Source: an uncultured Jannaschia sp. (GTDB taxonomy: Bacteria > Pseudomonadota > Alphaproteobacteria > Rhodobacterales > Rhodobacteraceae). Taken from it: a stretch of 64,000 nt of DNA. Shown piece after piece: positions 5,938-61,418 of the stretch (position 1 is the stretch's first letter; the number at the start of each line of letters is the position of its first letter). Location of the stretch: contig CANLTZ010000003.1 in assembly GCA_947494145.1 (NCBI GenBank), positions 186,001 through 250,000 on the forward strand, read 5' to 3'. A program made the position numbers and the translations under genes. The notes under the pieces are model-generated. The model worked only from the letters and a program-made list of their open reading frames with translations, did no database searches and was not told the origin of the DNA.

Positions 5938-8106
5938 TCACATCAGTGCATCGGATGGACCATCGGGCGAGACCGTCGCCAAGAGGTCGTCATCGCTGAT
6001 TTCGACGAAGGACCGCTCGGTCCCGTCGGGATTGTACTCGATCTCCCGAGAGGCCCAGTCGCGCACATCGCCTTCATCCGTGATCAACCGATGGATCAAG
6101 ACGCAATCATCGTAGCGATCAATCCGCCGTATCCCCTCATCTGAAAGGCGTTCGTAATAGCTCAGATCGCCGTTTTCATCGAATGCAGAATCCTGCCTTG
6201 CCCAATCGAAGACATCGTTTTGATCGGTGCGAGTCTGCGTGACCAATTCACCAAAGAAATAGTCCTGCCAGACATGTAATCCGTTATCGTAATCCACCAT
6301 CCGCACCTGCAATTCGCCATCGCTGTCAAAGGTGTCACGCTGGGACGTCCAATCCCAAGTATCGCCTTGATCCCAAAGCTCACGCGAAACGAGCACACCG
6401 TCGCAATATTCTTCCCGTTGCTCGACCCTGTCATCAAACGTTGTTTCGACCAGGTCCAGTTGTCCTGACGCATCAAATGTATAGGCCTTATAGTTCCAAT
6501 CCCACGCATCGCTGCGATCAAAGAATTCCCGGTATGCGATCACGCCGTTGACGTAGTCGTCATACTGATCAACACCGTCATCAAAATCAATTTCCGCTCT
6601 CTCAAGCTGCCCAAGATCATCAAATTCGTAGACCTTGTAGTCCCAATCCCTCGCATCGCCATGATCCCACAGTTCCCGGTATGCAATTACGCCATTGGCG
6701 TAGCCTTCCAACTGCTCAAGACCGTCATCAAACTCGATATACGTCACCTCAAGCTGCCCAAGGCCATCAAATTCGTAAACCTTGTAGTCCCAATCCCTCG
6801 CATCGCCACGATCCCACAGTTCCCGGTATGTAATTACGCCATTGGCGTAGCCTTCCAACTGTTCAAGACCGTCATCAAATACGATGTACACCCTGTCGAG
6901 CTGACCAACGGCGTCAAAATCGAAATACTGTTCAGACCAATCGTGCGCGTCTTTCAAGTCTTCAATCATGCGGGACGTGACCACACCGTGCAGGTATCTT
7001 CCAGATTGCACGACCCCATCATCGAAAAGGATGTAGTCGTCTGCCAGGTCACCCACCGCGTCGTAAGTTCGGTATTGCTCTGACCAATCCCGCGCGTCCC
7101 CAAGGTCCAGGTGCGTTTTGCTTCGGATTATGCCGTCCCTATATTCAATGGTCCGAACGACACCGTCATCAGCCACGCGGTCGTGCTGCACAACCTGCCC
7201 TTGCGGATCATACCACGTCACTTGCAACCACCAATCAAAGGCGTCAGCGAGATCTGTTTGGATCTCATGCGATAAGACACCACCGGTATAGGTGCCCGTC
7301 CAAATGACGCCATTGTCGAACACGGTCTCGCGAGAAACGAGGCCCCTTACGGGATCATAGATGAATTCACGACTTTCCCAGACGCGCGCGTTCTCTTCAT
7401 CGGTTTCAATCCGTGAGACGCGGTTCCCCGCCTCGAACTCCTGGACTGAGCGGACCCCGTCATCCATGACCCGCTCGAAGTATTCCAAGCGGCCGTCGTT
7501 GTCCCGGCGTATTTCCTTTGTCCGCCATGCTTCCGCATCGCCTGGGTCCGCTTGGACACGAAACGTCTCAACGCCGTCAATGAACTCCTGTGCTATGCCA
7601 CTGCCGTCATCTTCCCATCGATAGAAGTAAAAGCTCTCGTCGTTGTCTCCGTATATGTATCCGTAGGATTCCCACTCATAGATATTCGCCTGGTCGACCA
7701 AATGAGTGAATGCAGAAACACCGTCGTCATATTCGACGAAAACCTCAACGCCATCATTGCGGGTTTCCTGAGACGTCGCCAAAACACCGTCAGCCTTAAA
7801 CTTGAAACTCCGCGACTGCCAGCCTCGCGCATCTTCCGTATCCTCCAACTCGCGCGTGACCAACACGCCGTCCGAATAGGTATCCGTGCGAAAAACTCCG
7901 TTATCGGCCATGCGATCAAACCGGGTCAGCACCCCGTCCGCGTCGAAATAGGACACCATGTAAGCTACGTCCCGGCTGTCGAACACGTCGGTCAGGCGAC
8001 GGCTAACCAACACACCGTCTACGAAAACCTCAACGAGGGTGGCCCCGTCAGCCAAGATGCGAGTCTCTTCCCGCTGAGTGGATGACAGACGATCCCCGAG
8101 GGCCAT
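5938..8106 (-). CDS. Acidic tandem-repeat protein (about 14 copies of a 49-residue unit)
   Basis: A 722-aa, very acidic protein built almost wholly from a 49-residue repeat. Each unit carries a conserved Trp in a D-x-x-D-x-x-DW context, a turn like FDxxGQL, then FDDG and a Y-x-NGV segment. The pattern suggests repeated beta hairpins, loosely like YD or MORN repeats, but I do not recognise the family. No signal peptide or membrane span is visible. I chose the second ATG (8106) because AAGGAG lies 6 nt before it. Base composition looks less GC-rich than the neighbours, and two units are nearly identical in DNA, so copy number probably changes by recombination. Export by a signal-less route is possible but unproven. 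Confidence 0.75.
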   Translation of the reverse strand: MALGDRLSSTQREETRILADGATLVEVFVDGVLVSRRLTDVFDSRDVAYMVSYFDADGVLTRFDRMADNGVFRTDTYSDGVLVTRELEDTEDARGWQSRSFKFKADGVLATSQETRNDGVEVFVEYDDGVSAFTHLVDQANIYEWESYGYIYGDNDESFYFYRWEDDGSGIAQEFIDGVETFRVQADPGDAEAWRTKEIRRDNDGRLEYFERVMDDGVRSVQEFEAGNRVSRIETDEENARVWESREFIYDPVRGLVSRETVFDNGVIWTGTYTGGVLSHEIQTDLADAFDWWLQVTWYDPQGQVVQHDRVADDGVVRTIEYRDGIIRSKTHLDLGDARDWSEQYRTYDAVGDLADDYILFDDGVVQSGRYLHGVVTSRMIEDLKDAHDWSEQYFDFDAVGQLDRVYIVFDDGLEQLEGYANGVITYRELWDRGDARDWDYKVYEFDGLGQLEVTYIEFDDGLEQLEGYANGVIAYRELWDHGDARDWDYKVYEFDDLGQLERAEIDFDDGVDQYDDYVNGVIAYREFFDRSDAWDWNYKAYTFDASGQLDLVETTFDDRVEQREEYCDGVLVSRELWDQGDTWDWTSQRDTFDSDGELQVRMVDYDNGLHVWQDYFFGELVTQTRTDQNDVFDWARQDSAFDENGDLSYYERLSDEGIRRIDRYDDCVLIHRLITDEGDVRDWASREIEYNPDGTERSFVEISDDDLLATVSPDGPSDALM
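6601..6894 (-). repeat. Two near-identical 147-bp tandem units
   Basis: The segments 6601-6747 and 6748-6894 inside the repeat-protein gene differ at only a modest number of positions, while other units of the gene are far more diverged. Anchor strings recur exactly 147 bp apart (for example, at 6664 and 6811). This indicates a recent in-frame duplication of one 49-codon unit. Confidence 0.85.
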
Positions 8107-8361
8107 GGCAAGCTCCTTCATGCGAACGGTAGAAAATCACCGCGTGCCGAAGGAAACTGTCTAAATTTTGACGGCTGCCGCCGGAGTGAAACACCCTGAA
8201 ATCTCGGATATCGGGCGAACGAGACTGCTCAGAAAGATAGTAAAAACGGATACTTAAAAGGAAATCACCAATTGGAAATCGGCCTAATCCCCGCACGCCG
8301 CTATGGCCTTACAGCCACCCAGCACAGCCTTATCCAGTAGCCGCGGCGCCTTGACGTTGCG
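8107..8361. other. Intergenic region upstream of repeat-protein gene
   Basis: About 255 bases between the end of coaD and the start of the repeat protein, both leftward. The part near 8200-8270 is AT-richer than its surroundings and probably holds the promoter of the repeat-protein gene. I see no convincing gene, terminator or RNA in it. Confidence 0.45.
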
Positions 8362-27348: not shown

Positions 27349-27717
27349 CATTTGCCAATGATTGGCGACGGTGCCAGGGCGGACTACAGGCCAGGATCAA
27401 TCCGCAATCTAAACAAGAAAAAACCGCCGCGCTCCGTGGGGCGGAGGCGGCGGGGAAGTTGCGTCTCTATACGTTCAGTCGATGGTCGTTTGGCCGGGCA
27501 GGCCATGACGGGGCGCAGCTTCGGGGACAAGAAGCGGCGCAAAGCCCAGATCGGGGAGAGATGGGCGCGACCGAACGGGGACGCGGGCAGAAAACAGGTT
27601 GGCCTTTACTCCGACGCTCGAAAAATCAGACCTGTCAGTTTTTCAAGAAGGGTTCCAACATCGTTGCTCGTTGGGACCTGCCTAGAACAATCTGACTGTC
27701 ACTCTTCCGAACTTCTT
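27349..27717. other. 3' region of the 41-aa SOS-box gene; no larger gene
   Basis: About 370 bases between the chemotaxis gene and the small SOS-box gene. Its left end holds a strong leftward terminator (27418-27453). The stretch 27454-27717 is therefore probably a long 3' untranslated region of the small gene, or a separate small RNA ending at that terminator. Short frames here have no support. Confidence 0.5.
27418..27453 (-). terminator. Intrinsic terminator, leftward
   Basis: On the minus strand, a 12-bp GC-rich stem (CCGCCGC plus CTCCG on the + strand, pairing with CGGAG plus GCGGCGG, one bulged G, loop TGGGG) is followed by six T. It ends transcription coming from the 41-aa gene. Confidence 0.85.
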
Positions 27718-27843
27718 TCAGGCCAGGAAACTGGGAAGGTGCAGAAGGCTCATCATCAAGGTCACCAGCCAAACACCGCCCAGAATGTCTGTCAGGGGAT
27801 CACGCTCAATGCGAACCAGGGTCTTTTTGATCTTGCGGGCCAT
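27718..27843 (-). CDS. 41-aa single-span membrane protein with upstream SOS box
   Basis: A short gene in the gap after recG. The ATG at 27843 has a good ribosome site (GGAGG, 7 nt away). The N-terminus is basic (MARKIKKTLVRIERD), followed by one hydrophobic segment (ILGGVWLVTLMMSLLHL) to the end. Topology should be N-in with a single inner-membrane span. A perfect GTTC-N7-GTTC LexA box lies about 70 bp upstream of the ATG. Caulobacter SidA, a 29-aa SOS-induced inner-membrane division inhibitor, is the closest functional analogue I know; no sequence similarity is claimed. Role inferred only from size, topology and the box. Confidence 0.7.
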   Translation of the reverse strand: MARKIKKTLVRIERDPLTDILGGVWLVTLMMSLLHLPSFLA

Positions 27844-27910
27844 TGCGGTGCCTCCGGTGCTCGATGATCTTGTTGCACCTTTGTTCTCATACCTTGCGTT
27901 AACTTGTCGA

Positions 27911-27925
27911 GAACTTTTTTAGAAC
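27911..27925 (-). promoter_or_regulatory. LexA (SOS) box upstream of the 41-aa gene
   Basis: On the minus strand the site reads GTTCTAAAAAAGTTC, an exact GTTC-N7-GTTC alphaproteobacterial LexA box, and is nearly the same as the box in the lexA promoter of this window. A third GTTC lies 6 nt further upstream, and a perfect 8-bp inverted repeat (27932-27950, GAACAAAC-AGC-GTTTGTTC) overlaps it. Confidence 0.8.
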
Positions 27926-27963
27926 ATACGCGAACAAACAGCGTTTGTTCTCCGCAACTGTTT

Positions 27964-32453
<4,490 letters not shown>

Positions 32454-43213: not shown

Positions 43214-43242
43214 TTGACACAAAAGGGGAACTTTTCTAGAAC
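43214..43242 (+). promoter_or_regulatory. lexA promoter with LexA box
   Basis: TTGACA (43214-43219), a 17-bp spacer and TAGAAC (43237-43242) form a good sigma-70 promoter. A GAAC-N7-GAAC LexA box (43228-43242) overlaps the spacer and -10, the position expected for repression. It lies 51 bp before the lexA ATG, indicating autorepression. Confidence 0.85.
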
Positions 43243-43292
43243 AGATAGGGACAGGGGCCGATTGGACCGGCCGATAGATGGGGAAACGAACC

Positions 43293-43985
43293 ATGTTGAC
43301 GCAAAAGCAGCGCGACCTTCTGGCCTTCATTCACAAGCGAGTGCAGCGCGACGGTGTGCCGCCCTCTTTTGACGAAATGAAGGATGCGTTGGACCTGCGT
43401 TCGAAATCGGGGATCCACCGACTGATTACGGCGCTGGAAGAAAGGGGTTTCATTCGCCGCCTTGCCCATCGCGCGCGGGCCATCGAAATCACGCGCTTGC
43501 CCGAAGACATGGCGCGCGGCTCATCCTTCGTACCCCGCGTGATCGAAGGCGACGGCCCTGCGGCTGCAGCACCGCGCGACGCGCGACCGATCCAGGTCGA
43601 TGCGACAGAACTGCCCGTGATGGGCCGGATCGCCGCAGGTGTACCCATCGAAGCAATCAGCGAAGTGGCGCGCCATGTGGCTGTGCCAGGCCAAATGCTG
43701 GACCGTGGCGGCGAACATTACGCGCTGGAAGTCAAAGGCGACTCGATGATCGATGCAGGCATCAACGATGGCGACGTTGTCGTAATCCGCGAGCAGAGCA
43801 ATGCAGATACCGGCGATATCGTCGTGGCCCTGGTCGATCACAGTGAGGCGACACTGAAGCGGTACCGCCGATCCAAAGGAATGGTGGCGTTGGAAGCGGC
43901 GAATCCGGCTTACGAAACACGCGTTCTGACCGAAGACCGGGTGAAGGTGCAGGGGCGCTTGGTAGGTCTGATCCGCAGCTACTGA
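43293..43985 (+). CDS. lexA: SOS repressor LexA
   Basis: Represses DNA-damage genes and cleaves itself when stimulated by RecA. The 230-aa protein has the N-terminal winged HTH ([32 protein letters not shown]), the cleavage site A115-G116, catalytic S151 (KGDSMIDAG) and K189 (EATLKRY). I use the second ATG (43293), preceded by GGGGAAACGAA. The promoter carries a consensus box. In R. capsulatus LexA also influences GTA production via the CtrA system. Confidence 0.97.
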
Positions 43986-49054: not shown

Positions 49055-49148
49055 GCTGCGACTGATTGGTACAAATCGCCCAAAAGGCCTCAATCCGACC
49101 ACGAAAATGTGGTGATTTTGGACAAATGTCCTTGTTCCGAGTCGATTG

Positions 49149-51806
49149 ATGTCCGTCTCCGACGCCACGGCCGCTACCGCCGCACGCTGCCCGTTTCTCG
49201 CCCAACTGGAACAGATGCCCCGTTTGACCGAGGCACGGTATGAGGATGCTTTGGGCGAGCTTTATGAAGGGGCAGACCCGCTTGAGGTGGCGCAAAGACT
49301 CTTTGACCAGGATGGCAGCACGCAGAATGCCCAGGGGGCAAGTGCCCTGTTCACAAGCTGGGGCCAGTTCATCGATCACGATCTGAGCCTTACACCCGAA
49401 GGCGAAACCGAGCATTTTGACACGGATGCTTTCCCACACGATGTGCCAAGATCCGAAGTGCTGACCGGCACGGGCGAAGAAGGCCCCCGCGAATTCGGCA
49501 ACGCCATCACCTGGCAAATAGACGCCAGCATGGTCTACGGCTCAAACGACGGGCGCGAGGCTGACCTGCGCGCTTTCGAAGGTGGCCGGCTTCGCATGAC
49601 CGAAGACCCAACGGGGACACGCGGCCTGCTGCCCCAAGCCACGCCCGAGACGGTCATGGCAGGCGACACGGAAGGCGAGGATGCTGTGTTCCTGGCCGGC
49701 GATGTGCGCGCCAACGAAAACCCGAACCTGCTATCGCTCCACACGCTCATGGCGCGGGAGCATAATTACTGGGCCGACCGGCTGGCCGAGGAACACCCCG
49801 ATTGGACCGATGAACAGCTGTTCCAAGGGGCCCGTGACATCGTCGAATACACCATTCAGAAGATCACCTATGAAGAATGGCTGCCTCTGCTGGTGGGCGG
49901 CGCCACGCCCACCGACATCGAAGCGGTCGAGCACGACGCGGATGTGGATGGCCAAGTCGCGCTGGAATTTTCGACCGCCGCGTTCCGGTTCGGACACACA
50001 TTGGTGGCGTCACGGCTAGAACGGCTGAACGAAGACGGCAGCATTGCCGAGGGTGGCCATCTGGCGTTGATGGAGGCGTTCTTCAACGCAGGCATCGTGC
50101 GCGAAGGTGGCATCGACAGCTTGCTGCGTGGCCAGGCCGGGCAATCGGCCGAGGCGCTCGACACGCAAGTGATCGACGACCTGAACTTCTTTCTACAGAC
50201 GCCCGATGGTATGGCGGGCTTCTCGTTGCCTGCGCTCAACCTTTTGCGCGGTGCCGATCATGGCATGGGCAGCTACGTGGACGTGCGGGCCCAGATTCTG
50301 GGCGATATCGACCCAGCTATGCTGGACCCCCAGGATTTCTCGATCATCACGGCGGACTTGGAACTGCAGGCCGAACTGGCCGCCGTTTATGACGACGTTT
50401 TTCAAGTGGACCTGTGGGTAGGGGGTCTGGCCGAAGACCCGTCGCCAGGCGCGATGATGGGCCCGCTCTTCACCCATATCGTCAGCGATCAGTTCATTCG
50501 CACCGCGACCGCTGACGATACATTTGGGGATCTGGACCCGGGGCTTGGCGAAGACATCCTTGCGGATGTGCGGGCCAGTTCGCTCGATGACGTCATCCTG
50601 CGCAACACCGATATCGACTCGATCCAAGAAAACCCCTTCCTATGGGAAACGCGCGAATTGACGGCGTCGCTGGGCATCTCCGGCACCGGTGGCAACGACG
50701 CTATCGAGGTGGCCGCCCTGGATGTGGCGGGCAATGTGGTGGCCGGTGCGGGCGACGACGTGGTCACCGTGACCGGCGGCAGCATCATCGCCGGCAATCT
50801 GGAGCTTGGCCGCGGCGATGACCTCTTGGAGATGACATCAGGGGGGATCGAAGGGGATGTGCCCGGCGCCCATTCTGCCGGTCAAGGCAACGACAGCGTA
50901 GTGCTTGGTGGGACCGCGCGCATTGAGGGTACACTGAACACAGGCGGTGGTCGGGATTCAGTGCAGCTGGCTGATGTCGCCTATGTCTCGCGGGTGGCAA
51001 CCGGGCGCGGCGCAGATACGTTTGTGCAAACCGGGCGCGGCGCTGCCGAAAGCGTCGATCTGGGCCAGGGCAGTGATTTTGCCCAACTCAGCGGGTCGGG
51101 CGTGGGCGAAATCCATGGCGGACGTGGGCAGGACACGCTGGCCGCAGGCGACGGGACGGTCACCTTCGACGATGGCTCAGACAGAGATGGCGTGATCGAG
51201 TGGCGCGACGGAGAGATGACGCGCTTCACCGGCTTCGAAGTGGTCACTTGCTTCACCCCCGGCACGTTGATCGTCACGGCCCTGGGCAAGCGTCCCATCG
51301 AGACCCTGCGCCCCGGCGCACGGGTGATGACCTTGGATGCGGGTCTACAGCCCGTCCGTTGGATCGGGCGCAGCCGAGTGCCCGCCACGGGCCGGTTGGC
51401 GCCGGTGCGGATCGATGCCGGTGTGCTGGGCAATACGCGTCCCCTATCGGTCAGCCCGCAGCACCGAATGGTGCTGTCCTCGGGACTGGCTGAGATGCTG
51501 TTTGGCGCGACCGATGTGCTGGCCCCGGCGCTTGCGCTGACGAACCGGCCGGGGGTGACCCGGTCCGAAGGCGGGTGCGTCGAATACATTCATATCCTGT
51601 TCGACAGCCACCAGATCGTTCTCGCCGAGGGCATCCCGTCGGAGAGCTTTCATCCCGGCGTGATTGCCCTGTCTTCCCTAGAAGATGCGGCCCGGGCCGA
51701 AGTGCTGGCCCTGTTTCCCGGATTGGACAAGCAGAGTTATGGGAAGGATGCGCGGCCAGCATTGCGAGGCCGCGAAGCGCAATTACTAGCAGATCTGGTG
51801 TTGTAG
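49149..51806 (+). CDS. Heme peroxidase with repeat region and C-terminal Hint domain
   Basis: An 885-aa modular protein. Residues about 10-510 are an animal-type heme peroxidase: distal His77 in FIDHDLSL, proximal His283 in FRFGHTLV. Residues about 515-690 are Gly/Asp-rich repeats (NVVAGAGDDVVTV, LGRGDDLLEM, GQGNDSVVLGG, GGRGQDTLAAG) resembling RTX calcium-binding repeats. A Hint (hedgehog/intein) domain begins at Cys701 (CFTPGTLIVTALGKRPIETLRPG) and includes PLSVSPQHRMVLSS. There is no N-terminal signal; secretion by a type I system is the usual route for such proteins. Bacterial relatives are linked to antimicrobial or halide oxidation. The ATG at 49149 lacks a strong ribosome site. Confidence 0.88.
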   Translation: MSVSDATAATAARCPFLAQLEQMPRLTEARYEDALGELYEGADPLEVAQRLFDQDGSTQNAQGASALFTSWGQFIDHDLSLTPEGETEHFDTDAFPHDVPRSEVLTGTGEEGPREFGNAITWQIDASMVYGSNDGREADLRAFEGGRLRMTEDPTGTRGLLPQATPETVMAGDTEGEDAVFLAGDVRANENPNLLSLHTLMAREHNYWADRLAEEHPDWTDEQLFQGARDIVEYTIQKITYEEWLPLLVGGATPTDIEAVEHDADVDGQVALEFSTAAFRFGHTLVASRLERLNEDGSIAEGGHLALMEAFFNAGIVREGGIDSLLRGQAGQSAEALDTQVIDDLNFFLQTPDGMAGFSLPALNLLRGADHGMGSYVDVRAQILGDIDPAMLDPQDFSIITADLELQAELAAVYDDVFQVDLWVGGLAEDPSPGAMMGPLFTHIVSDQFIRTATADDTFGDLDPGLGEDILADVRASSLDDVILRNTDIDSIQENPFLWETRELTASLGISGTGGNDAIEVAALDVAGNVVAGAGDDVVTVTGGSIIAGNLELGRGDDLLEMTSGGIEGDVPGAHSAGQGNDSVVLGGTARIEGTLNTGGGRDSVQLADVAYVSRVATGRGADTFVQTGRGAAESVDLGQGSDFAQLSGSGVGEIHGGRGQDTLAAGDGTVTFDDGSDRDGVIEWRDGEMTRFTGFEVVTCFTPGTLIVTALGKRPIETLRPGARVMTLDAGLQPVRWIGRSRVPATGRLAPVRIDAGVLGNTRPLSVSPQHRMVLSSGLAEMLFGATDVLAPALALTNRPGVTRSEGGCVEYIHILFDSHQIVLAEGIPSESFHPGVIALSSLEDAARAEVLALFPGLDKQSYGKDARPALRGREAQLLADLVL

Positions 51807-57957: not shown

Positions 57958-60183
57958 TCAAGGCTCCCGCCGGGGGGTGCGGTTGCGGGGCGGCATGTCC
58001 AGCCGACCGGCCCCCACCTTGTCAGGGTCGGCAAAGAACGGATAGCGGCGGCGTCGGGTTTCGGCGGCAATGGCCTCCCGCATGATACGGAAGCGAAGGC
58101 GAAAATGTGCGTCGCCCCCGTGCCGCATTAACAAGACTGCCATGCGGCGGGTCATCTGCGCCACCGCAAAGCTCGTGCCTTGCATGGACCGGACCGTGCC
58201 GTCATTCGACCCGGCGGCAAGGCGGCCAAGATGGGCATAGCCGTCATCGGACGGATAGGACGCGCTTGGGATTGCCAAACTTCTGGCACGTCGGAAGATT
58301 TTACGCCCAAGTCCCGTGCTTGCATAGGGGGCGGGTTTCCCATCGCTCAGCCGGTAACCACCAACAATTGTGACGCCTGCCTGCCTATTCCCATCGGTAT
58401 TCGCCAAGGCGTTCATCGTGCCGTGCCGCCGAATTTTTCCCGCATTTTCAAGGCTGCCCGGCGTATAAGGCGAGGCGCGTTGGTCGTAGTCTTCCCGAAC
58501 GTGGTCTGGCGGGTAGCGCCCCGGTCCCGTATGGGTCGGGTAGTTGAACGTATCCCGCTGCCGCCCTGTCTGCGGGTCGTGACGTTCATATTCTGGTTCA
58601 TCGAAGTAGGAGAGCCGCGACCGCTGTCTGCCCGGTAGCTCCGACTGGTCGGTCTGCACACTCAGCGTGACGAAGACATCGCGTTTCGAGATATTTTTGA
58701 GCGTGATCGTCCATGCCCCAGACGGCGCCTCTGGACTGAGGCTGTCATGGAGGAGTGTCGGCGCCACACAGATCAAATAGCGTTTCAAACGCGGGCCTTT
58801 GGCGGGTGGAAGCGGTGTTTTCGCTTCGCAGTAGATGCGCGCAAAATCGGCCGTTCCATCTGCCTTTTCGCCAAGCCCCGTGTACCGCCCCAACCCCAAT
58901 TCCGCTGTCCCGCTGACGCGCCCCATCGGATCCGTCAGTGCAAGTTCCAATTCCGGGCCCGTGGTCAGGTCTTGGGCTTCGAACCAGACCTCGACAAAGT
59001 TCGAAGATTGATCCCCCGGCGCAATGCGCCACGCGAGAGAGCGGAGGGGTTGCTGGCCTGCCTTCGCCGCCGGAAGCGTCAAATGCGCATTGCCGCGCGC
59101 CAGGTTGTCATTGCCAGATGGCGTCACAACGAAGACGGGGTGGAAGCCCTCTGCCGCGCGAATGGCGTTCAACTGACGGATGATGCGGCTTACCTCGTCA
59201 TCGCCGTCCTTCGATCCAGCCTGCTTGGCGAAGGACAGGTTGATGAGGATGGGATAGCCCTTCAGAGCATTCGGATCGGGTCTATCTGCCTTGGCCACCT
59301 TACTTTTCGCCAGCCAATAGCGATCTGCCGTCAAGACCATCCACAGCAGACCAAGAATGACGAAGTAGCTGAGATGGCGGCTGGACAGCCCCATAATGAT
59401 GCGATCGGGCAGATTCACCACCATTGGCCGGACGCGGCGCCGGAAGGCCTCATCATCCGCGGTCGTGGTTTCTGGGTTGACCCCCGTTGCCGCATCGAAA
59501 ACGTGAGTTCCGTGGGCATAAGCGCGACCCAATTCACGGTGCCCTCGGATGTTGCGATAATCACCGGACCCGACAAGGGTGTTGAACGCCTCCACGTCGA
59601 TACCCTTGGCCGGTGTGGGCAGTTTTGAGTGCGCCAAGGCTGCGTCGATATCCGGTTTGAGCAATGCGAGCCCGAAAGGCAGCTGCCGGGTGCGGGGCGG
59701 AAAGCCATCGGATGCACGTCTATCCGCGATCTGCTGCCACGCCGCAACAAGCCGCGTCTTGCCGTCCGCAAGCCGTTGGGCCTGGTGATGCAGGGCGATG
59801 CCGCGATCGATCACGCCAACGACGACAGCGTCAAGATCGGGCGCGTCGTCGGCACTGATGGGTGGCAGCCAAGCGTCGGAAAGATCGGACGGATCTGCCA
59901 TCGCGAAATCGGGAATGCGCGGTGTCAGCCGGGTGGAATCGAGGTAGGTCTCAATCAGCCCAAGGACCTGGGACAAGACATCGTCTTGCGCGCTTTGCCC
60001 CTGCCCGCCTGCCCCGTTTTCTTGCGCGCAGGACAGCTCGACCAGCCTGTCGACGGACCCATCGACGCCGGGGTCACGCGTGGCAAACCCCTCCCCTTCG
60101 ATTGCATCGACGAAGTGCGAATACGGATCGACGCTGTCACTAAGCCACGGCGCCCAACCGCGCCAGTCGCTGCCCGATGTCAT
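57958..60183 (-). CDS. Subtilisin-family (S8) serine protease, membrane-associated
   Basis: A 741-aa S8-like peptidase with the triad in order: D126 (VVVGVIDRGIALHH), H224 (AYAHGTHVFD) and S671 (QGTSFAVAQ). The oxyanion Asn is probably in VTPSGNDNLARG. A hydrophobic span (about residues 271-287, YFVILGLLWMVLTA) sits between H and N, and a beta-rich insert of about 200 residues separates Asn from Ser, both unusual. No signal peptide. Its ATG overlaps the stop of the PAP2-like gene by 4 bp, so the two are translated together. Substrate unknown. Confidence 0.8.
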   Translation of the reverse strand: MTSGSDWRGWAPWLSDSVDPYSHFVDAIEGEGFATRDPGVDGSVDRLVELSCAQENGAGGQGQSAQDDVLSQVLGLIETYLDSTRLTPRIPDFAMADPSDLSDAWLPPISADDAPDLDAVVVGVIDRGIALHHQAQRLADGKTRLVAAWQQIADRRASDGFPPRTRQLPFGLALLKPDIDAALAHSKLPTPAKGIDVEAFNTLVGSGDYRNIRGHRELGRAYAHGTHVFDAATGVNPETTTADDEAFRRRVRPMVVNLPDRIIMGLSSRHLSYFVILGLLWMVLTADRYWLAKSKVAKADRPDPNALKGYPILINLSFAKQAGSKDGDDEVSRIIRQLNAIRAAEGFHPVFVVTPSGNDNLARGNAHLTLPAAKAGQQPLRSLAWRIAPGDQSSNFVEVWFEAQDLTTGPELELALTDPMGRVSGTAELGLGRYTGLGEKADGTADFARIYCEAKTPLPPAKGPRLKRYLICVAPTLLHDSLSPEAPSGAWTITLKNISKRDVFVTLSVQTDQSELPGRQRSRLSYFDEPEYERHDPQTGRQRDTFNYPTHTGPGRYPPDHVREDYDQRASPYTPGSLENAGKIRRHGTMNALANTDGNRQAGVTIVGGYRLSDGKPAPYASTGLGRKIFRRARSLAIPSASYPSDDGYAHLGRLAAGSNDGTVRSMQGTSFAVAQMTRRMAVLLMRHGGDAHFRLRFRIMREAIAAETRRRRYPFFADPDKVGAGRLDMPPRNRTPRREP

Positions 60184-61418
60184 GCCACAGGCCCCGATGG
60201 CGCGGGTTTAGGCCATTCAAGAGCCACGCTTTTCCAGTATCGCGCAAGGACGGGCATTGCCGGCATTTCGACCTGTCCAGCTTGTGCCAACTTGCCCGAA
60301 GCTTCGCGTAACCAGCCCGACGTGAAGTCTTGGCCGGCTTCCATGGTCACAACCTCGCCATGGTCATCCCCACCGGAGTCTTCGTCCTGTCCGTCCTGTA
60401 GGACCGGCAGCGCCAGAAAGTCGGCACGGCGAAGCTGCAACATTGCCGGTGTGTCACCATCCTCTGCGCTGGTGGCTTGCGTCGCTCGGCCCAGGGCGCC
60501 AACACCGTCCCCAATGGCCAAACCAAGCATGGCCCCCGCCGCGGAATCGACTGGGAAATGCACGCCCGCCACGGTCCTGTTCACCGCGATCCGGTGCGCA
60601 ACGCGGAACGGTATGGACCAATTCGAAAGCAAGTTGGGGACAGGCTGCCCCGGATCCAAACACTGGGCCAGCGTGGTTGCGAGCACAAAGCTTTCGGAGG
60701 CGTGACCGCTTGGAAAAGTAGAATGATCCGGCGTCTGAATCATGGGCATCACATAGGGCGAAAAGTCCACGGGCCGCGGACACCAGCAGGCATGTTTCAC
60801 CCGCATTTCGATGTCGTAGGTAAGCCTTTGCACCACTTCCAGCAGTTCGAGCGTATAGGATTTTTGGGTTGCGTCCAGACGACCGACGGCACCAAAGAAG
60901 GACAGAATATCAGAGATTTGCTGATTGATCTCCGACAGCCGATCTAGCCGCAGATCAGCGTAGTTGCGGACTTGGCGCAGCTGCTGACGAAGGAAGTCGT
61001 CATCCGGTTTGGCCAAGACACGAAAGATCGCGGCGCCCGCCATCGTCACCGTCGCGGTTCCGTCCAGAGGGTCAGGGAACGTCACGTCAATCTTGCTGGC
61101 AAGTTCGCCATAAAGAAGCGTCATCCGACGTCCGGGGCTCAGATATTTAAGCTCATCGTAGCCAACCGGTTGAGAAAGCGGTGTTCTCAGCGTTGCGACG
61201 TCGTCCGGGTCCCAGAAACCGGTCGTGCCATCGTGGCTCATGACAAGTGCGTAATTCAGTTGCGGAGATGACCCGCCACCGGCATGGCCAGCGCCACCTC
61301 CGGCACCACCGCCTGCACCGCCACCTGCGCCGCCCCCGGCACCGCCACCTGCGCCGCCCCCGGCACCGCCACCTGCGCCGCCCCCGGCACCTCCACCTGC
61401 ACCACCACCCGCTTCCAT
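60180..61418 (-). CDS. PAP2/vanadium-haloperoxidase-fold protein with Gly-rich N-terminus
   Basis: A 412-aa protein. The first about 45 residues are a nearly pure (Gly-Gly-Gly-Ala) tract. The catalytic core shows all three PAP2/vanadium haloperoxidase motifs: K208-x6-R215-P216 (KHACWCPRP), PSGH with H239, and R-x5-H-x3-D in NRTVAGVHFPVD. It could be a phosphatase or a haloperoxidase-like enzyme; there are no membrane spans, which favours the soluble VHPO-like group. Coupled to the S8 protease by a 4-bp overlap. The ATG has GGGAG upstream. Confidence 0.82.
   Translation of the reverse strand: MEAGGGAGGGAGGGAGGGAGGGAGGGAGGGAGGGAGGGAGGGAGHAGGGSSPQLNYALVMSHDGTTGFWDPDDVATLRTPLSQPVGYDELKYLSPGRRMTLLYGELASKIDVTFPDPLDGTATVTMAGAAIFRVLAKPDDDFLRQQLRQVRNYADLRLDRLSEINQQISDILSFFGAVGRLDATQKSYTLELLEVVQRLTYDIEMRVKHACWCPRPVDFSPYVMPMIQTPDHSTFPSGHASESFVLATTLAQCLDPGQPVPNLLSNWSIPFRVAHRIAVNRTVAGVHFPVDSAAGAMLGLAIGDGVGALGRATQATSAEDGDTPAMLQLRRADFLALPVLQDGQDEDSGGDDHGEVVTMEAGQDFTSGWLREASGKLAQAGQVEMPAMPVLARYWKSVALEWPKPAPSGPVA
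61317..61388 (-). repeat. 24-bp tandem repeat, three exact copies
   Basis: Three identical 24-bp units (61317, 61341, 61365) with degenerate flanking copies encode the Gly-Gly-Gly-Ala tract of the PAP2-like protein. Such perfect coding repeats can change copy number by slippage, altering tract length in frame. Confidence 0.9.

Follow-up and report, generated by a model that had tools for sequence, protein, structure and literature searches.

A LexA-boxed locus for a small predicted membrane peptide and a structured 3′UTR RNA conserved across Rhodobacteraceae: a candidate SOS cassette

INTRODUCTION

Two very short inner-membrane proteins, SidA and DidA, are made after DNA damage in Caulobacter crescentus (PMC4211646; PMC12700426). 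SidA is 29 aa long, is controlled by LexA, and binds FtsW (PMC4211646). The LexA consensus of Caulobacter is GTTCN7GTTC (PMC12700426). RNAs can also be made under LexA control: in Klebsiella pneumoniae, the small RNA (sRNA) DinR arises from the 3′ end of the LexA-controlled dinI mRNA and binds over the ribosome-binding site of ftsZ and thereby represses this gene (PMC10907235). In Rhodobacter sphaeroides, the mRNA of the small protein CcaF1 has a 3′UTR that is processed into the sRNAs CcsR1-4 (PMC8625941), and CcaF1 itself has been described as a small RNA-binding protein (PMC10253847).

Division arrest after DNA damage in Rhodobacteraceae, a major and mainly marine family, is undescribed in the literature that we searched, and the locus described here is a concrete, family-wide candidate for it. 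The locus itself is also undescribed in that literature, which lay mostly outside subscription journals. LexA sites of D. shibae have been reported, in passages that do not mention recG (PMC6473078). The 30 trans-sRNAs of R. pomeroyi, whose positions are not in the text as available (PMC4809877), could include the RNA of this locus.

RESULTS

A small predicted membrane peptide under purifying selection. The window analyzed here, a stretch of 64,000 nucleotides from an uncultured Jannaschia sp. (GenBank assembly GCA_947494145.1, contig CANLTZ010000003.1), carries on its minus strand a 41-codon open reading frame (ORF) at positions 27718 to 27843, with the ATG at 27843 and the stop codon ending at 27718. 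A GGAGG ribosome-binding site is read in the sequence 7 nt 5′ of the ATG (27851 to 27855, minus strand), and both the ORF and this site agree with the first-pass annotation of the locus, which had called a 41-codon gene with GGAGG. The upstream neighbor in the same orientation is recG (27964 to 30048, minus strand; Pfam DEAD, Helicase_C, RecG_dom3_C, and RecG_wedge).

Both the sequence and an AlphaFold2 model (helices 3-13 and 16-40, mean pLDDT 74) give the 41-aa peptide a basic N-terminal helix followed by a single hydrophobic helix. Under the positive-inside rule, a basic N-terminus predicts an N-inside orientation, and the N-terminus of the peptide is therefore predicted to lie inside. In an alignment of 34 diverse peptides, five positions never vary (M1, D19, G22, L26, and P37) and L34-H35-L36 hardly vary, and the family signature of the peptide reads D19, G22, L26, L34-H35-L36-P37. 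The median dN/dS is 0.26 (104 usable of 105 pairs) among the 15 genus loci that have exactly 41 codons, a sample that excludes loci L021 to L025. In the same 15 loci, the mean pairwise difference is lowest at codon position 2 (0.14), intermediate at position 1 (0.29), and highest at position 3 (0.49). The peptide ORF is under purifying selection.

Searches against Pfam and PDB returned zero matches, and those against NCBIfam and PHROGs returned only stray weak matches to 1 or 2 of the 34 members (best E value 0.0029 in PHROGs; 0.055 in NCBIfam). The peptide has no known family among these four databases. Plasmid records held no match to one member of the peptide family, and phage records held no match to the window peptide.

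A LexA-type operator at a probable, conserved promoter. A LexA box of the form GTTC-N7-GTTC, GTTCTAAAAAAGTTC, is located at positions 27911 to 27925 (minus strand), 38 nt past the recG stop. The bare GTTC-N7-GTTC motif is weak evidence, because the window holds 4 matches against 2.0 expected and 14 of 100 shuffles reach 4. In the 4.9-Mb assembly, which is 98% complete, the extended box GTTCTNNNAAAGTTC matches at only two sites, the peptide locus and lexA, with no control matches. The second site, GTTCTAGAAAAGTTC (43228 to 43242, minus strand), is situated upstream of lexA (43278 to 43985, plus strand; Pfam LexA_DNA_bind, E = 5.9e−16; Peptidase_S24, E = 1.5e−33) and differs from GTTCTAAAAAAGTTC by one base, which bears out the earlier observation that the two boxes of the window are nearly identical.

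To describe the surrounding promoter across genomes, we used a DNA pattern of the promoter only, which is blind to the peptide. Scanned over genome contigs and covering part of the collection, it returned at least 118 loci; the window itself falls outside the pattern, having TCGAC in place of TTTAC. In the window, a third GTTC half-site is found 6 nt upstream of the box (27932 to 27935, minus strand), and among the matches listed, a third GTTC at this 6-nt spacing is present in 107 of 118 loci (72/80 and 35/38). The box is abutted by a putative −35 element, TCGACA (27905 to 27910, minus strand; TTTAC in the family pattern). At a fixed distance from the box is a conserved TGAGAACAAA (27880 to 27889, minus strand), which is probably an extended −10 element overlapping a LexA half-site. 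Among the matches listed, TTTAC and TGAGAACAAA are separated by 15 nt at 109 of the 118 loci; in the window, the spacing is 16 nt. From the promoter motif to the peptide ATG, the distance is short (34 to 96 nt). Between recG and the box, an inverted repeat GAACAAAC-3-GTTTGTTC (27932 to 27950) holds the third half-site, and similar inverted repeats are seen in several congeners.

The operator of the alphaproteobacterial LexA regulon, GTTC-N7-GTTC, is present at the peptide locus and would overlap its promoter. Because of this operator, we infer SOS induction, and we consider it very probable, as judged from the sequence, that the locus is under SOS control.

Distribution and conserved position after recG. 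The peptide is present in all 20 Jannaschia genomes, with the source genome counted. A single-sequence search was too weak across the family (6/198), and a profile of 25 peptides was used instead; it detected the peptide in 233 of 295 family genera (E ≤ 0.1). Among 385 genomes of the class, again with the source genome counted, there are 5 profile matches at E ≤ 0.01, all of them within this family, and the profile found no relative of the peptide outside Rhodobacteraceae. Each of the 25 loci L001 to L025 has both recG and a GTTC-N7-GTTC box. At the 28 top loci of the profile search, the box is found in 28 and recG is matched in 27; at the remaining locus, L054, the sequence stretch is short, and the box and the peptide are read there.

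The promoter-only pattern led to the same arrangement. Among the matches listed, the end of recG is at most 700 nt upstream in 117 of 118 loci and the peptide is downstream in 116 of 118, the three gaps (recG or peptide) arising because the pattern match lies at the end of a sequence stretch. The listed loci come from Rhodobacteraceae-type genera, which we take to belong to this family, or from Rhodobacteraceae/Rhodobacterales bins, with 5 of 118 labeled Alphaproteobacteria only. Named genera with the locus include Ruegeria, Leisingera, Sulfitobacter, Celeribacter, and Paracoccus. The check proposed in the first-pass annotation, a search for the peptide and its box after recG in other Rhodobacteraceae, therefore shows the reading frame and the box to be conserved jointly across the family.

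Twenty of the 62 profile-negative genomes were examined, of which 17 yielded the recG locus and 3 a weaker paralogue only. As inspected by eye, a small membrane ORF of the D-x-x-G type follows recG in 12 of these 17 genomes, under a GTTC-N7-GTTC operator in 10. Two operators deviate: at L061 (genome G037) the peptide follows recG under GTTC repeats spaced by N6, and at L076 (genome G033) GAAC-N7-GAAC replaces GTTC-N7-GTTC. In genome G033, which is 74% complete and carries the peptide, lexA was not found.

Genome G034 has no peptide after recG. Its box, promoter, peptide, and RNA lie together about 415 kb from recG (L213, 1501 to 1800; E = 1.4e−4 for the RNA covariance model R1 described below), and this joint relocation indicates that the cassette can move as a unit. 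The position downstream of recG given in the first-pass annotation thus holds for nearly all of the listed promoter-pattern loci but is not absolute.

No copy of the peptide was found in 4 of the 17 inspected genomes (G008, G017, G054, and G056). The link between the peptide and lexA is not strict, because three of these four genomes still have lexA (in G017 as two pieces). We reject strict co-occurrence with lexA, which is retained without the peptide in these three genomes and was not found alongside the peptide in G033.

A structured RNA between the peptide stop and the terminator. The first-pass annotation had noted a strong terminator after the ORF; a simple terminator scan found none. 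The terminator does exist, as a bulged GC-rich hairpin followed by U6 (27418 to 27453, minus strand), but it is not close, being located about 265 nt beyond the peptide stop. Most of the intervening stretch is filled by a conserved structured RNA, the arrangement of 3′UTR-derived sRNAs. In the window, this RNA (27454 to 27594, minus strand) has an unpaired UUUUCUGCCC, a long closing stem, and three hairpins with the loops UCCCC, UUGUCCCC, and UGCCC. Its fold has a z-score of −5.79, or of −6.38 if the terminator is included (0/200 shuffles each). Neither the window region nor five relatives gave an Rfam match at gathering score (Rfam 15), with sub-gathering matches only. The window also has an extra stretch of 123 nt (27595 to 27717), because its RNA starts 123 nt past the peptide stop; in 60 named loci, this gap is at most 78 nt, with a median of 5 nt.

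Within 300 nt past the stop, the tails of the family contain GCGGTTTTTT in 84 of 126 cases and TTCTGCCTGC in 57 of 126, and the median fold z-score is −2.5 (55 of 110 RNA cores). An alignment-free test of the 5′ and 3′ outer arms used 110 of the 126 tails, 16 being dropped for an unrecognized terminator, a core that was too short, or the presence of N. The median energy of the arms is −26.7 kcal/mol with their own partners versus −19.2 kcal/mol when swapped between loci. The own pairing is the more stable one in 99 of 110 loci (P = 7e−18, which, like every P value in the RNA analysis, ignores relatedness), versus 50 and 51 of 110 for two control segments that share the relatedness of the test loci. 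Among the 18 cores of the genus Jannaschia, the corresponding arm-swap values are −24.6 and −16.9.

MAFFT alignments of the tails yielded little consensus with RNAalifold, and a structure could be derived from averaged base-pair probabilities. In a 20-sequence seed (A4), this structure pairs 83.3% of cells versus 28.8 to 47.4% when slid, and double changes occur in 16 of 33 pairs versus 7.5 in shuffles. Of the five measures applied to the seed, that of further pair types does not set it above shuffles (107/500). A covariance model, R1, seeded on sequences outside Jannaschia, was run on 81 sources totaling 700,883 bases, the seed members among them, and gave 60 matches. Every match is on the coding strand of the peptide and starts −1 to 78 nt past its stop (median, 5 nt). 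In the alignment of these matches (A5), compensatory changes are found in 32 of 33 pairs. Covariation scores 0.396 there, versus 0.145 for shuffled and at most 0.081 for slid structures; the rows of A5, being fitted to the model, favor its structure.

When R1 was applied to another 66 sources, it matched 27 of 29 loci of other genera, with one weak match at E = 0.14, and in 289 genomes of the class it gave three matches, all in Rhodobacteraceae and each directly 3′ of the peptide. R1 did not match the window and 20 named loci among the 81 sources, or any of the 20 Jannaschia loci and the 17 profile-negative loci (L060 to L076) among the 66. In the window, the Jannaschia loci, and L060 to L076, the structure rests on folding, arm swaps, and manual reading.

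C-rich loops and candidate targets of the RNA. A C-rich motif is present in 253 of 363 predicted hairpin loops versus 27% of 715 loops in shuffles, and the base composition of the loops is 48% C and 30% U. G-rich ribosome-binding sites are frequent pairing partners of such loops. Because DinR, a LexA-controlled 3′-end sRNA, represses ftsZ, we tested ftsZ as a target. The loop motif CUGUCC has its complement, GGACAG, in the ribosome-binding site before the ftsZ ATG in 17 of 25 family genomes (L217 to L241; counted by eye), but the same hexamer precedes only 2 to 6 of the 261 to 345 background genes examined per genome in four genomes. Whole-length duplex energies between the RNA and ftsZ were uninformative. 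In the background ranking, 32 of 345, 282 of 332, 6 of 261, and 69 of 319 genes equal or beat ftsZ, which is hence no preferred partner of the RNA loops and is suggestive in one genome only. As a specific target, ftsZ is rejected in these four genomes and remains a weak lead. A Hok-like mechanism, in which the 3′ RNA would pair with the leader or the ribosome-binding site of its own mRNA, likewise found no support (54/110 each).

Other genes of the window. Elsewhere, the window encodes an 886-aa protein with an animal heme peroxidase domain followed by a Hint_2 domain (49146 to 51806, plus strand; Pfam) and a 727-aa protein of imperfect repeats, as seen by eye, that has no Pfam match (5938 to 8121, minus strand). 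A PAP2-superfamily protein (60180 to 61418, minus strand; Pfam), with a long GGGA repeat at its start, adjoins a 741-aa protein without a Pfam match.

DISCUSSION

We propose that LexA occupies an operator of three GTTC half-sites that extends over the −35 region, and that its cleavage upon DNA damage would release a transcript running from about position 27875 to the terminator at 27418. One output of this transcript would be a single-span peptide of 40 to 41 aa, predicted to insert into the inner membrane with its N-terminus inside. It is most likely a damage checkpoint factor that would use its conserved D-x-x-G ... H-L-P helix to bind a membrane protein in the divisome or envelope, in the manner of SidA and FtsW, and by this analogy it could block division. 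A division or envelope checkpoint role is, in our judgment, a plausible assignment that falls just short of an even call. The other output would be the structured 3′UTR RNA, probably processed to an sRNA, whose C-rich loops may pair with the ribosome-binding sites of other mRNAs and repress their translation. That the RNA acts in trans is a view to which we moderately incline.

Taken as a whole, a LexA-controlled SOS cassette that yields a checkpoint peptide and a trans-acting 3′UTR RNA from one short transcript seems to us evenly poised between right and wrong, because the core of the proposal (two conserved outputs controlled by LexA) is strong, unlike the targets. The operator, the promoter geometry, the selection on the coding sequence, the structure of the RNA, the joint conservation, and one joint relocation are directly supported. 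The first-pass annotation had proposed a Rhodobacteraceae SOS peptide; a conserved, LexA-boxed small predicted membrane protein after recG stands, and the structured RNA in the 3′UTR had been overlooked. We are doubtful of a bolder version, in which the peptide halts the divisome while the RNA loops shut down the translation of certain growth or division mRNAs.

The same RNA could instead be a cis element for mRNA protection or clean termination, leaving the peptide as the sole trans-acting product. Its position directly after the stop codon (median 5 nt, 60 loci) and its end in a strong terminator are consistent with such a function. However, a stabilizer or terminator needs no ~140 nt with many compensatory pairs and family-wide C-rich loops, and we consider this reading possible, on the unlikely side.

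The target of the peptide may also lie outside division. Many small single-span stress proteins bind non-division membrane targets, and a peptide without a known family could similarly bind a respiratory enzyme, protease, or transporter and tune metabolism during DNA damage. Since nothing in the data points specifically to any of these, we regard such a role as fairly unlikely.

Could the peptide be an SOS-induced toxin that depolarizes the membrane, like TisB or DinQ, with the RNA structure regulating its own mRNA? Its size, single span, and LexA control are similar to those of DinQ (PMC3567139), but it is a single-copy gene at a constant position and under purifying selection across the family. 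The short distance from promoter motif to ATG (34 to 96 nt) also argues against this hypothesis, as does an RNA that shows no coevolution with its own leader or ribosome-binding site (54/110 each), and we find a toxin rather improbable. Finally, despite the strong covariation in the RNA, it is highly improbable that the gene proper is the RNA and that the small ORF is incidental, a view already disfavored by the dN/dS of 0.26 and by the invariant M1, D19, G22, L26, and P37 in 34 aligned peptides.

The bolder version, if true, would amount to a dedicated protein-plus-RNA checkpoint made from a single mRNA under LexA. The locus is also a clean test case of whether one SOS mRNA can act as both protein and RNA. 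SOS membrane peptides and SOS 3′UTR sRNAs are known kinds, and the family-wide conservation of both in one transcript is undescribed in the literature searched.

Several described systems share parts of this arrangement. The Escherichia coli type I toxin-antitoxin systems TisB-istR and DinQ-agr similarly have an SOS-controlled single-span peptide (PMC3567139), whereas the peptide of the cassette is conserved family-wide at one place. The CcaF1/CcsR system comes from the same family, Rhodobacteraceae, and likewise combines a small-protein mRNA with a 3′UTR RNA. It differs in its induction by oxidative stress, with LexA unmentioned in the main text of its description (PMC8625941), and CcaF1 is not a membrane peptide; the cassette RNA has no Rfam match at gathering score. 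The cassette RNA, like DinR, belongs to the 3′ part of an mRNA under LexA control (predicted for the cassette), and action on other mRNAs in the SOS response is what we propose for the cassette too. In contrast, ftsZ is the target of DinR and not a preferred partner of the cassette RNA, and the cassette encodes a membrane peptide rather than DinI. As compared by description, the peptide resembles SidA in being a very short, LexA-boxed, predicted inner-membrane peptide of an alphaproteobacterium with a GTTCN7GTTC operator, and differs in length (29 aa in SidA versus 41 aa). The peptide has no relative outside Rhodobacteraceae among the 385 class genomes, and its gene is followed by a conserved structured 3′UTR RNA. 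Its length, hydrophobic helix, and operator fit the SidA-type description, with membrane location and induction being predicted. By analogy, and with no claim of homology, we suggest that the peptide is SidA-like in kind.
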